From positions 24,417-88,416 of the IMG/VR virus record IMGVR_UViG_3300020442_002635: a stretch of 64,000 nt of DNA. The stretch is one strand, 5' to 3'. This DNA is from a virus. The notes under the pieces are model-generated. The model was not told where the DNA came from, did no database searches, and saw only the letters and a program-made list of their open reading frames with translations. The stretch's first letter is position 1. Each line of letters opens with the position of its first letter. Made by a program: the position numbers and the translations under genes. This document shows, piece by piece, positions 55,135-63,689 of this stretch.

Positions 55135-57252
55135 TCAAAGTACCCCCAATGTTTTGATCTTGCTGAGAGAATTTTGGAAGTCTGCAGCAAACTGAGGAAG
55201 TTGTTGACTAGTTTGTGATTGAGGACTTTCAGAGAAATCAGAATTAATTAGATCTGCAATCTCACCTAACATAGCAGTCGGTGATTGCATTGGTGGAGGT
55301 GAAACACTTGGAGGAGTTGTTGCAGGTCTAAATTTAGCAGCAGTTGCAACTGTGCTACTTGGAGAAGAAGATCCTCCAGAAGATGGAGATACTGAGGAAG
55401 CAATTGAACTGCTTGCAGGAGAACTGGTAGGAACATCCTTCAAATATGATGCGCCACCAGTTCCTTTTCCTTTTATCAAACTCACAATAGTTGGTGCTCT
55501 TCTACCAACTTGCCCATACCATGCACTATCCATCAATTCATTTCCAGCAGTCTCATAATCACCAGCAGCAAATGCTTTCTTGAATGATGGGAATCCACTT
55601 GCCCATGCAGGGCCCATGTTAAAAGTTAAATCTATAAGTGCTGCCTTTTGTTGTCCACTTGCTTTTTCATAACCTGGAATTTTTTCTGCTGCTTTTTTAT
55701 GATGTTCGTAATCATCATCAAACAATTGATTTGCTTTTTCGTCAGTGATCGTATCGCCTACATTTAAACCTTTAACTGGAGAACCTGAGTCAATTAAGTG
55801 ACCATATCCAACTGTAGGGAATCCCAGACTATCCTGATACACCTCTAATCTTTTTCCTTCATGGACTTTAATCATTGACTTAGCAAAGGAATCATAATTC
55901 CCTGCATCTCCACCACTAGATGCAGTATCAGTAGTTTTTGGTTTCCCTGTTCCAGCCCATCCTAAAACATCCCACCATGCTCTTCCTCCTCCACCAGTGG
56001 TATCCGTTTCTTGTTTTTCTTTAGTTCTTCCTCCAGGTTCTCCTCCCATATGACCACCACCTTGAGCATATGTAACACCACCTCTAATCATAGGGCGATT
56101 AGTTCCGCCACCCATAGCATTCATACCTGCTAAAGTATCTGTACCATACTTATTAACAGCACCTCTACTCATTACAAACTCACCAGGTGCCAGCATTGCA
56201 GGAATAGTATCCTCATTAGGACCACTGCCAGGAACCTTACCACCACCTTTCATTTGTACTGGTTCTTTAAGATTCTCAGTTTCTTCTTTCTTGCTCTGAG
56301 CCTCTTGTAATTCTGGCGGAAGCAGAGAATCAACTTCCACTCCTTCTTCTGCTGCCTTTAAATCTTGTTCTGCTTTCTTTGCATCCTTTTCTGTTTTTTC
56401 CCCAAATCCAAGTAATTGTTTTGTAGCATCAAATAGTTTAGGAACAAATGCTATGGCAAGTCCAGTTATTGCTGCAATCAATCCAACAGGACCAAGTAGT
56501 GCTCCACCAAATAATATCAACCCACCAAGCATGGCAGGCCACCAATCTTTGACAAATCTGAATATCGTTTTTATTTTATCTGTATTTTCTTTATCACTAA
56601 ACCACTCAAAGATACTCATTGCAACTCGACCTAAAAATACAGTGGTCAAGTAATTCATAATTTTATCAAAGATACTCTTTACAGGAGAAAGAACTTTTCC
56701 TACTGTCTTTGCAATTCCTTTAAAAATATTTGATTCTAATCTCTTCTCTTTCTTTGCTCTCCTTTCTTTTTCATCATCTCTTCTATCTTTCTTGCTTTTC
56801 TTTTCTTCTAACTTTTTCTCCTCAGCAAGAGTTTCTCTTATAGAATCAATACCCTTTAGGATATCTTCTAAATTTTCTTCAGTCTCCTCTGATATAGGAG
56901 GTGGAATTATACTTGATATATTTGATAATGATCCTCCAGGAGATTTTACAATAGCACTTCCTTTACCAAGACTTCTATTATTTTTTCCTGCTCCTACAGA
57001 TTCAGTCTGTGCTTTTTTCTTTGCTAAGACTTTTTCTACAAAGGTTTCAAATCCAATCTTATCATTTCTCTTTTTAAATCCTTCTTTCCTTTCTTCAGAA
57101 GTTAATGCTTCACCACCAATTGTCCCTGAAGTTGTTATCTCTTCAAGGTAAGCTTGATATCTATCTTCTCCAAAAAACTTTGCAGGAGCAATGGCTCCAC
57201 CCTTACTGGGCCCCTCTTCTCTTATTGATTTAAGGAGGTCATCCAGATCCAT
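55135..57252 (-). CDS. Tape-measure-like tail protein with T4-type lysozyme domain
   Basis: 705 residues. Coiled-coil at ~145-175, hydrophobic helices at ~200-275 (MLGGLILFGGALLGPVGLIA), a tape-measure motif PGSGPNEDTIPAMLAPGEFV at ~341-360, then a complete GH24 lysozyme at ~452-600. Catalytic E465, D474 and T480 have exactly the T4 lysozyme spacing (HEG...YQD..GFPT.GYGH). It should hydrolyse the glycan strands of peptidoglycan during DNA ejection. Paralogous layout to 52828-55131. Start overlaps the 60-residue ORF by 14 bases. In T4 this domain belongs to gp5. Confidence 0.75.
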   Translation of the reverse strand: MDLDDLLKSIREEGPSKGGAIAPAKFFGEDRYQAYLEEITTSGTIGGEALTSEERKEGFKKRNDKIGFETFVEKVLAKKKAQTESVGAGKNNRSLGKGSAIVKSPGGSLSNISSIIPPPISEETEENLEDILKGIDSIRETLAEEKKLEEKKSKKDRRDDEKERRAKKEKRLESNIFKGIAKTVGKVLSPVKSIFDKIMNYLTTVFLGRVAMSIFEWFSDKENTDKIKTIFRFVKDWWPAMLGGLILFGGALLGPVGLIAAITGLAIAFVPKLFDATKQLLGFGEKTEKDAKKAEQDLKAAEEGVEVDSLLPPELQEAQSKKEETENLKEPVQMKGGGKVPGSGPNEDTIPAMLAPGEFVMSRGAVNKYGTDTLAGMNAMGGGTNRPMIRGGVTYAQGGGHMGGEPGGRTKEKQETDTTGGGGRAWWDVLGWAGTGKPKTTDTASSGGDAGNYDSFAKSMIKVHEGKRLEVYQDSLGFPTVGYGHLIDSGSPVKGLNVGDTITDEKANQLFDDDYEHHKKAAEKIPGYEKASGQQKAALIDLTFNMGPAWASGFPSFKKAFAAGDYETAGNELMDSAWYGQVGRRAPTIVSLIKGKGTGGASYLKDVPTSSPASSSIASSVSPSSGGSSSPSSTVATAAKFRPATTPPSVSPPPMQSPTAMLGEIADLINSDFSESPQSQTSQQLPQFAADFQNSLSKIKTLGVL

Positions 57253-57421
57253 TTGCTTGTTGCTGCTTTAATTTTTCTTCCTCAAGATGCTGCTGCAATA
57301 ATGCAACATAGATGTCTCGTTCCCAAGGCATCATGTTTTCAATCTCTGTCAATGAGTATTTATGGTACTGCATCAAGGCAAAATTGAGACGGAAGTAGTT
57401 CTCAAGATCCATATGGATCAT
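57239..57421 (-). CDS. Small tail-assembly chaperone-like ORF, likely expressed as a gp26 fusion
   Basis: 60 residues (ENYFRLNFALMQYHKYSLTE, IENMMPWERDIYVALLQQHL, then a Gln/Lys tail). The 'MPWERDIYxxLL' element is reminiscent of the T part of lambda G-T tail chaperones. Its ATG is 2 bases after the gp26 stop, and the frame is entered by a -1 slip at 57436-57430. Independent initiation from ATG 57421 or 57412 remains possible since AGG lies just upstream. Confidence 0.6.
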   Translation of the reverse strand: MIHMDLENYFRLNFALMQYHKYSLTEIENMMPWERDIYVALLQQHLEEEKLKQQQANGSG

Positions 57422-57423
57422 GC

Positions 57424-58143
57424 CTATGCGAAAAAAGATGCTAGTCCCTCAAGTACAACTTCACTTTCAACTTTTGTTTTTGGATTAGTAACTGTAAGAG
57501 TATGAGAAAGTTTTGGCATTGTTTGGAAGAACTTCTCAATCTCTTTGAACTGAGAAGAGTTCATCGATTCAAGGAAATCTCTTACCTCTTTCTTAGTACA
57601 GTCTGCTGCAGCCCAAACCTCATCTTCACTAAAGATCTTATCAATACATGATGCAATCAAATCAAACGATTGCTCCATTCCACTCTTATCATTAAAATCA
57701 AAATTATTTTTAATGAACTGATCAAGAGATGGATACTTAAGTTCCATCATCAAAGATTCATCAAGTTTAATCTTATTAGTGTGCTCATCAGTTCTCTGAA
57801 CTTCAATATCATCAAGATTGATATTAACAGTTACTTGAGTTTCTTCATCATCAGGACATATGATATTTACATCCAACTCTTCACCAACAGACTTACCACG
57901 AATATTTAAAAACAAATATTCAATATCAAAAGTAGGAAGAGTTTCTACTTTGATACCTTTAGTCAATACACAGTTAGAGATAACAGACTTAATTGCTGTA
58001 CTGATTTGTTTAGTATCCTCACTCTCCAGTGCAATGACAAGAACCTTCTCCTCTTTAACCAGGAAAGGTCTGTACTTTATTGATTTTCCTGTGGATGGCA
58101 ACTCAAGTTCATAAGTTGGCGTAGCAATTTTAGGTAAAGGCAT
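57424..58143 (-). CDS. gp26: Baseplate hub/tail assembly protein gp26
   Basis: 239 residues in the zero frame. MPLPKIATPTYELELPSTGK, YRPFLVKEEKVLVIALESED, FDIEYLFLNIRGKSVGEELD match the T4_baseplate (gp26) family, including the early 'Y.PFL.KEEK.L..A' stretch. A slippery T-TTT-TTC lies directly before the last codon and stop. The late promoter motif AATAAATAATC is 28 bases upstream of the ATG. T4 gp26 is needed for hub assembly. The predicted frameshifted product (~301 residues) would add the 60-residue ORF. Confidence 0.75.
   Translation of the reverse strand: MPLPKIATPTYELELPSTGKSIKYRPFLVKEEKVLVIALESEDTKQISTAIKSVISNCVLTKGIKVETLPTFDIEYLFLNIRGKSVGEELDVNIICPDDEETQVTVNINLDDIEVQRTDEHTNKIKLDESLMMELKYPSLDQFIKNNFDFNDKSGMEQSFDLIASCIDKIFSEDEVWAAADCTKKEVRDFLESMNSSQFKEIEKFFQTMPKLSHTLTVTNPKTKVESEVVLEGLASFFA
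57430..57436 (-). other. Probable programmed -1 frameshift site (T TTT TTC)
   Basis: Minus-strand codons are TCT TTT TTC GCA TAG. The heptamer T-TTT-TTC fits X-XXY-YYZ in the zero frame. After a -1 slip the reading is TTT TTT CGC ATA GGC ATG, which enters the 60-residue ORF with no stop. Location at the extreme 3' end of a tail-assembly gene parallels the G/G-T frameshift of lambda-like tails. Confidence 0.6.
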
Positions 58144-58182: not shown

Positions 58183-58932
58183 TTAGAATAAGTTACTAAT
58201 AGATTCTCCAAAATCACTAATTGCATTTCCAGCTGCATTAGCAATTGCTCTAGGAATACCACCTATGGTAGTAAGTAAATCATTTGCTTGAGCAAAACCT
58301 GCAGGTGTTAGTGAACTTGGATTGGAATTACTTGGGTTTCCAGGTCTAGTTACGTACCTAATGTACGTCATAGAAACAGTACATTTCAAAAGAGAAGAAG
58401 ACTCATATGAAACGGGCATAGATGAAATGCTTAGAGGATAACTCTTTACAAATTCATATTCTAAAGAAGAACTATAATCCCTCTCAAACTTAATGACCTT
58501 GAGTCCAGCAGCAGCATACTCATTAGAGTATCTCATTCTATAAGAGTATGTTGGATCAAGAGGATTTTTTCCATCATCTTTCATTTCATTATCTTCATCA
58601 GTAATGAAACGAATCCATGCTTCAAAGAATCTAATAGGTAGATAATTCTGAGCATCAACATAAAATGTTAAATCAATTCTATCATCAAACTGTCTTCTGT
58701 ATGCATGTTTCTCAGAGACACCTGTGAAATCATCCTTAATATCTAATGTTGTCAATTGGGATCCAGGAAGACTGGCTTCAGAACACATCAGATTTAATTG
58801 ATCCTGATTTGCTCCCAGCAACCTCTGCACAAATCCTGCATTAGGAAGTCCAATCTCAACTTCAAAGTGAGACGATAATGAAGGTCTGAGTAAGTTTGAT
58901 TTAATGTCTGAAATTGACCTTTTCTTAGGCAT
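58183..58932 (-). CDS. Tail tube-type protein (gp54/gp19-like)
   Basis: 249 residues. The first ~180 residues follow the T4 gp19-type tube fold: HFEVEIGLPN, MCSEASLPGSQLTTLDIKDD, YRRQFDDRIDLTFYVDAQNY, RFFEAWIRFITDE, YPLSISSMPVSYESSSLLKC and YIRYVTRP. The extra ~60-residue C-terminus and location beside gp26 and opposite gp48 favour gp54 (tube initiator), but a gp19 paralogue is equally compatible. Divergent to gp4 with a 32-base intergenic region that carries the plus-strand late promoter. Confidence 0.65.
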   Translation of the reverse strand: MPKKRSISDIKSNLLRPSLSSHFEVEIGLPNAGFVQRLLGANQDQLNLMCSEASLPGSQLTTLDIKDDFTGVSEKHAYRRQFDDRIDLTFYVDAQNYLPIRFFEAWIRFITDEDNEMKDDGKNPLDPTYSYRMRYSNEYAAAGLKVIKFERDYSSSLEYEFVKSYPLSISSMPVSYESSSLLKCTVSMTYIRYVTRPGNPSNSNPSSLTPAGFAQANDLLTTIGGIPRAIANAAGNAISDFGESISNLF

Positions 58933-62774: not shown

Positions 62775-63093
62775 TCTGCTGCTTCATGATGCCTAGCATG
62801 TCAGACATATTGTTAAAGACAACTGACATATCAACATTTGATGGTAGACCCATCATCTTAGCAGAATCCAGGATGCGTTCTTTCATTTCAATTGCTTCTG
62901 GATCATCAGACAAACTCAGTCTCGTATAGAGAATCTTTTGCTTATCTAAGAGTTTCTCCAAAAGATTTACATGCTTAACCTTTTCCTTCTGAGACATGGA
63001 AGGAAACTTAAACACACTGGTATAAACTTCATCTTGAAGTTCACCAATCTCAGTCATTTCTGCACGAACAACTTCTGAATCAAAGAAACTCAT
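62749..63093 (-). CDS. DUF1825-like protein
   Basis: 114 residues, MSFFDSEVVRAEMTEIGELQ, then HVNLLEKLLDKQKILYTRLS, LSDDPEAIEMKERIL and a helical end with MSDMLGIMKQQID. The FFDSxxVxxE start and the 'LLEKLLDKQKILYxRxxLSxDP' helix match what I know of DUF1825, a family of cyanobacteria and their T4-like phages. Placement between gp32 and gp59 suggests a replication accessory role. ATG overlaps the gp59 stop, Shine-Dalgarno GGAGG. Its cyanobacterial affinity is a hint to the host. Confidence 0.7.
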   Translation of the reverse strand: MSFFDSEVVRAEMTEIGELQDEVYTSVFKFPSMSQKEKVKHVNLLEKLLDKQKILYTRLSLSDDPEAIEMKERILDSAKMMGLPSNVDMSVVFNNMSDMLGIMKQQIDSTDTDL

Positions 63094-63689
63094 TTTCCCT
63101 CCAGGACAACACTCTTAAGAACCTTTTTGTAACGGAATACATCTATATGTAGGAAGGGAGAATACTTGGCCATACGTCTCGATACTTGATCCCACACTGG
63201 ATCAGACATTTTTTTGTCAAACTTAGACTTGTAACCAAGTATTCTATCAAGAATAACAAGTGTTTCGATAGAAACTTTATTTTTTAAATACTGTTTGATT
63301 AACTCTGGATGCTGTCCACCTTTGACAGCAAACATCTCATCAAAATTTTTATCTGAGAAAAGAGAATCAACTTCATTTTTGAAAAGATAAGACATGGATT
63401 GAGTTCGCTTTTGCCAGTCCTTAAAATTCTTTTCTCCATACTTAATAATATCAGCCATGTATAGAGACTGGGGATTCTGGCAACTCACAAAATTAGCAAC
63501 AAAGAATTGTTCAATCTCTTTGTTATCATGCTGTCTTGACATCTTTTCAAAGAAAAATCGATCTCTCCTTTTATAAAATGCGTCTAATGATGCTTTACAT
63601 CTTCCATTAAAACGAACATAGTCATATGAGTCCTTGGTGAAGTGAGACTTCATCGCAAGGTACGTCTTATAGCATTCAAAGGGCATCAT
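63090..63689 (-). CDS. gp59: Helicase loader gp59
   Basis: 199 residues from ATG 63689 (MMPFECYKTYLAMK); a TTG one codon upstream is less likely. YDYVRFNGRCKASLDAFYKR, RRDRFFFEKMSRQ, FFVANFVSCQNPQSLYMADI and VSIETLVILDRILGYKSKFD align by eye with T4 gp59 (YQKRRDKYFFQKL, FISNLVANQDAWIGDI, ISFETFILLDSFLN). Loads the gp41 helicase on gp32-coated forks. Mostly helical, 217 residues in T4. Confidence 0.9.
   Translation of the reverse strand: MMPFECYKTYLAMKSHFTKDSYDYVRFNGRCKASLDAFYKRRDRFFFEKMSRQHDNKEIEQFFVANFVSCQNPQSLYMADIIKYGEKNFKDWQKRTQSMSYLFKNEVDSLFSDKNFDEMFAVKGGQHPELIKQYLKNKVSIETLVILDRILGYKSKFDKKMSDPVWDQVSRRMAKYSPFLHIDVFRYKKVLKSVVLEGK

Follow-up and report, generated by a model that had tools for sequence, protein, structure and literature searches.

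The locus studied here lies on the minus strand of the window, a 64,000-nt stretch of viral DNA that, as judged by its sequence, belongs to a cyanomyovirus; among named phages, Synechococcus phage SynMITS9220M01 (Kyanoviridae) has the most similar gp26 protein, at 82%. The genes follow the order tail tube, gp26, gp51 and a large ORF, and the features of the gp26-gp51 junction and its surroundings are presented in Table 1. The family of gp26 (PF12322/phrog_150) is labeled 'baseplate hub', and that of the small ORF (phrog_634) is labeled 'baseplate hub assembly catalyst'. The small ORF has a second match, to positions 241-281 of phrog_150, indicating that some phrog_150 members carry both parts.

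Table 1 Features of the gp26-gp51 junction and of the adjacent genes in the window
Feature	Position	Strand	Evidence
gp26 (TAC-N-like, lambda gpG analogue), 239 aa	57424..58143	(-)	PF12322 T4_baseplate E 3e-76; phrog_150 E 1e-81; AlphaFold2 pLDDT 90
Shine-Dalgarno-like GAGGGA, 8-9 nt 5' of heptamer	57445..57450	(-)	anti-SD pairing peak, GAG bias
Slippery heptamer T_TTT_TTC	57430..57436	(-)	in-phase TTTTTT[C/T/A] at 269/272 unique junctions
Zero-frame stop TAG of gp26	57424..57426	(-)	
Stimulator-like hairpin CA-T-GATCC-ATAT-GGATC-T-TG, 7 nt 3' of heptamer	57403..57422	(-)	covariation; better folding than synonymous randomisations
-1 frame extension, gp51-type C-domain (TAC-C)	57239..57436	(-)	open frame; phrog_634 E 2e-30; phrog_150 positions 231-281; T4 gp51 200-244, E 2.8e-6
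gp51 ORF from its own ATG (57421), 60 aa	57239..57421	(-)	phrog_634 E 5e-29
705-aa ORF after gp51, probable tape-measure or tail-lysozyme protein	55135..57252	(-)	Phage_lysozyme PF00959; weak tape-measure PHROG matches
Tail tube protein gene, upstream	58183..58932	(-)	phrog_45 tail tube E 1e-33; Phage_TTP_2

The gp26 gene ends with TCT TTT TTC GCA TAG, in which the heptamer is in phase and lies 9 nt before the stop; the ending and its coordinates are as described in the first-pass annotation, which had proposed a programmed -1 frameshift at this point. After the heptamer, the -1 frame reads FFRIGMIHMDLENYF...NGSG (FF-RIG-MIHMDLEN...) and is stop-free to 57239. Thus, as had been claimed, a -1 slip enters the 60-residue ORF without meeting a stop, and a single slip would yield a fusion of ~ 301 aa. 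Among the 57 non-overlapping ORFs of the window, an in-phase X_XXY_YYZ motif occurs within 30 nt of the stop in three, and a poly-T motif occurs only at gp26. The minus-strand gene ending at 63090 has an in-phase G_GGA_AAA (63090-63100) 6 nt before its stop, and the ORF 63093-62749 in its -1 frame is open for 113 codons, which could be due to chance (overlapping start-stop).

The two parts of the junction can be compared with T4 genes 26 and 51, which are adjacent, divergent and detectably paralogous (E 2e-6). T4 gp51 (249 aa) is covered by PF12322 over residues 1-201 and by phrog_634 over residues 147-246, and T4 gp26 (208 aa) matches the gp26 part only. Profile comparison aligned gp26 with the N-terminal part of T4 gp51 (E 5.5e-6) and the frameshift-encoded domain with T4 gp51 residues 200-244 (E 2.8e-6); by the same approach, the C-domain was not found in T4 gp26 (E 0.55). 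Judging from these alignments, each of the two forms, short and long, has a gene of its own in the T4 branch, with no frameshift here, which agrees with the earlier remark that T4 is not known to use this device: T4 carries the gp26-like and C-terminal domains fused in one gene, gp51. The slippery site is present in Aeromonas 65 and the KVP40-like R10Z, which belong to Straboviridae, the family of T4, as well as in Stenotrophomonas, Sinorhizobium, Xanthomonas and marine phages.

What such a pair of proteins does is a separate question. By analogy, the reading of the locus as a tail assembly chaperone (TAC) of the lambda G/GT type, put forward in the first-pass annotation as a likeness to lambda G-T-H, is well supported by architecture and weakly by fold. 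Its position agrees with this reading, with the phrog_45 tail tube gene upstream and the 705-aa ORF with weak tape-measure matches downstream; the latter does follow directly, as had been noted, although the 'tape-measure-like' description fits it weakly and it carries a lysozyme domain. A Foldseek search of the gp26 model (pLDDT 90) against the PDB gave the highest probability, 0.66, to the HK97 tail assembly chaperone 2ob9, but with a weak E of 1.3, followed by 3fgx (probability 0.47, weak E 3.2), so that the fold match to the HK97 chaperone is only suggestive. The C-domain model is predicted to be helical, with a pLDDT of only 74, and had no Foldseek match in the PDB; profiles of gp26 and the C-domain found nothing meaningful among PDB sequences, and nothing significant was found for the C-domain in NCBIfam and Pfam. 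One member of the C-domain family has a marginal Pfam match to DUF6760 (E 0.11), a possible lead only.

Alternatively, the pair could act in baseplate-hub assembly only, with no role as a tape-measure chaperone, which would be compatible with a frameshift. T4 genetics places genes 26 and 51 in hub assembly, with both products classed as chaperones of hub assembly and gp51 being essential but no part of the finished particle (PMC3004832), and the similarity to the folds of solved TACs is weak. However, the two-product architecture, the gene order ahead of the large ORF and the published TAC assignment, as described in citing papers, point to a tape-measure chaperone. The two roles are not necessarily mutually exclusive, given that gp29, the tape-measure protein of T4, belongs to the hub itself. 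We consider an exclusive hub function rather unlikely.

The main test of the frameshift lies in the conservation of the heptamer and of the frame that follows it, the comparison that had been suggested for this locus. A set of 272 distinct gp26 junctions was assembled from viral-contig scans and named phages; the queries after the first scan were gp26 of S-PM2, Mosig, Aeromonas 65, R10Z and phiM12, and the sample is biased toward relatives of six query proteins. Viral-contig scans with gp26 of Aeromonas 65, R10Z and phiA8-29 found few loci. In the first scan, all 78 complete relatives had TTTTTTC exactly 9 nt before the stop and gp51 in the -1 frame. An in-phase TTTTTT near the end of gp26 was identified in 269 of the 272 unique junctions, followed by C (243), T (25) or A (1), and the -1 frame was open for 44-75 codons in every heptamer-bearing junction. 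The site was also kept in all 49 representatives sharing <60% aa identity in gp26, and NNT TTT TTC persists in such distant phages as Aeromonas 65, Vibrio R10Z, Stenotrophomonas Moby, S-CREM2 and Xanthomonas X1. With heptamer and frame retained in both close and distant relatives, the comparative support for a programmed -1 frameshift is very strong.

The heptamer is missing from three junctions, two of the Ackermannviridae type and one in a T4-type Enterobacter phage. In the Ackermannviridae-type junctions (L088, L089, L339 and L340), the gp51-type domain is in the -1 frame and the heptamer is absent; close to the gp26 stop they have ATT TTC or CTT TTC, which may permit a weaker slip similar to that of T7 gene 10. 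Two of these four junctions have an overlapping TAATG, and Kuttervirus L339 is without an evident start. Variants of the site were also seen. In the Mosig type (L003; 22/269 junctions), the gp26 stop comes 30 nt after the heptamer, which makes the overlapping gp26 tail longer, and Pseudoalteromonas phage XG4 (L092) has T_TTT_TTA, with zero-frame Leu in place of Phe, the sole such case seen.

Could the run of T simply encode a conserved Phe-Phe ending, with gp51 made as a separate small protein by termination-reinitiation or from its own start? The window offers a plausible ATG at 57421, which would allow additional independent translation, a nearby ATG exists in about half of the relatives, and gp51 is annotated separately in GenBank records. 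However, the codon preceding TTT is always NNT, whatever the amino acid (AGT, TCT, GAT, AAT, GCT, ACT, GGT, CAT and CGT; nine codons, eight amino acids), and Phe-Phe pairs elsewhere in the same genes are written as T_TTT_TTY in only 10/268 cases, against which retention in 269/272 junctions goes well beyond chance. This combination indicates that the nucleotide heptamer, and not just the peptide, is conserved. The 13 -1-frame codons after the heptamer lack ATG in 131/269 junctions and lack any of ATG, GTG and TTG in 101/269; in the latter, frameshifting is the only evident route to a complete C-domain. Moreover, the domain is covalently fused in T4. Taken together, a separately made gp51 is very improbable. 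In several cyanophage records, e.g. Syn10 and ACG-2014b/d/e/j, the region of the gp51 match carries no annotated gene. The small ORF, described earlier as chaperone-like, is the frameshift-encoded C-domain and not an independent chaperone; in many of these phages, annotating 'gp51' as a gene with its own start and stop is probably an artefact.

Additional evidence was provided by the sequences flanking the heptamer. On the 5' side, anti-Shine-Dalgarno pairing among 138 representatives reaches its maximum in an 8-nt segment that ends 7 nt before the heptamer, with a mean of -6.4 kcal/mol vs +0.13 for the background (z -6.9). The GAG:GAA ratio for Glu-Gly at this site is 144:44, compared with 51:104 at other Glu-Gly pairs. 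On the 3' side, the first 36 nt past the heptamer were compared with synonymous randomisations encoding an unchanged -1-frame protein; across the 138 representatives, the natural sequences are the better folded (mean z -1.7, p 8e-21), and the effect fades to ~ zero by codon 12. In such randomisations, the folding z of the window clade is -3.0, with 75% individually significant, and only 39% of the far group are individually significant.

The hairpin of the window clade shows double changes at 6/7 pairs among close relatives, and 0/500 shuffles reach its pairing or covariation score, values that should be read as counts and not probabilities since the sequences are related. The spacers of predicted hairpins peak at 5-7 nt. 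Covariation, synonymous randomisation and this spacer peak indicate that a selected structure is present 5-9 nt downstream of the heptamer, for which stimulation of the slip is putative. The structure claim is based on comparative data because the shuffle z-score of the window junction alone was not significant. An Rfam scan of the junction returned no relevant family. A sister clade (L150, L140, L167 and relatives; heptamer +7 to +36) has a different, longer 10-bp stem, GTATGGCTCA/TGAGTCATAC, and Mosig-like phages have the stem GCCTC/GAGGC; the hairpin thus seems to hold its place while its base pairs are replaced from clade to clade. A strong predicted hairpin is missing in roughly half of the lineages. 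The idea that all clades share a single conserved hairpin was considered and rejected, as the sister clade uses another register with little covariation. Overall, the Shine-Dalgarno-like GAGGG and the downstream hairpin appear to be two stimulator-like elements under selection.

These flanking elements also bear on transcriptional slippage along the T-run as the source of the fusion: the site is homopolymeric and reaches 7-8 T in some relatives, but six T is short for RNA polymerase slippage, just six T followed by C are found in 243/269 junctions, and the Shine-Dalgarno-like and hairpin elements are selected at the spacing of ribosomal frameshifting, which makes slippage at six T plus C unlikely, though less so at a run of 7-8 T, and this origin of the fusion scarcely credible.

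Ribosomal frameshifting is therefore the reading that we retain: gp26 and the downstream ORF very probably constitute one two-product tail-assembly-chaperone gene, a view that rests on comparison of sequences. According to the proposed mechanism, most ribosomes would end at TAG and release gp26 (TAC-N). A minority, we infer, would be stalled by the downstream hairpin and, probably aided by 16S rRNA pairing with the upstream GAGGG, would slip by -1 on U_UUU_UUC to produce the ~ 301-aa gp26-gp51 fusion (TAC-NC). If lambda gpG/gpGT is a guide, the N-part common to both products may coat the tape-measure protein, and the C-domain may recruit tail-tube subunits. In T4 and its close kin, a gene duplication would have taken the place of the frameshift, giving the pair 26 (short) and 51 (long). 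We regard it as somewhat probable that marine T4-like phages share a three-part signal, consisting of the Shine-Dalgarno-like GAGGG, T_TTT_TTC and a hairpin fixed in position and re-paired by lineage, and that free-standing gp51 is absent in most of them.

The TAC genes of T4-like phages were reportedly identified by Vladimirov, Gautam and Davidson in 2022, the genes concerned being 26 and 51, an identity that agrees with the T4 profile tests made here. The principle of a two-form TAC in T4-like phages, as far as papers citing that work describe it, is already known (published in 2022); the link of T4 gp26 to the tail-assembly chaperone family drawn in the first-pass annotation therefore holds but is not new. 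According to one such citing paper, some T4-like phages carry one short gene and one fused long gene (PMC10274946), and another reports poly-T slippery sequences in TAC-N genes of T4-like phages (PMC12846349). A 2016 review described G-T frameshifting as conserved in long-tailed phages 'except T4' (PMC5009743). In the literature, with Vladimirov et al. 2022 represented by the papers that cite it, we found no description of a three-part signal with a covarying lineage-specific hairpin or of how widely gp51 has lost its start codon; the signal with its three parts may be a new detail. The comparison of several hundred marine sequences confirms that the tail chaperone of the T4 superfamily occurs in two forms, which most lineages make by frameshifting and the T4 branch by means of a gene duplication. 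T4 gp26 and gp51, which have long carried the labels hub subunit and hub 'catalyst', thereby gain a testable mechanism, many cyanophage gp51 annotations, whether as a separate gene or missing, are probably wrong, and a compact signal becomes available for the study of frameshifting with cyanobacterial ribosomes.

Several known systems resemble the gp26-gp51 junction. In T4 26/51, as in the window, the gp26-like domain occurs both alone and joined to a gp51-type C-terminal domain, but T4 uses two adjacent, oppositely oriented genes and the window one gene with a -1 frameshift. Phage 0305phi8-36 (orf143/144; PMC2147016) has a two-gene G/GT without a frameshift, as does T4, although it belongs to a separate phage lineage and is likened by the two-gene form alone. 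In lambda, the tape-measure protein is bound by gpG and by the minor product gpGT, whose T part brings in tail tube subunits (PMC5009743). The lambda G/GT pair shares with our locus a -1 slip shortly before the short gene ends, a minor fusion product and a position after the tail tube and before the tape-measure gene (V/G/T/H), whereas the heptamer and domains differ and no sequence relationship was established here. The TAC frameshift of Vandenendeviridae/Andersonviridae (GTTTTT, phage Adele; PMC12846349) likewise has a conserved poly-T -1 site at the TAC-N end, but in other phage families and with another motif. Escherichia coli dnaX combines an upstream Shine-Dalgarno-like element, a homopolymeric heptamer and a downstream stem-loop, as does the junction described here; the dnaX shift, however, shortens the product, while the gp26 shift lengthens it.
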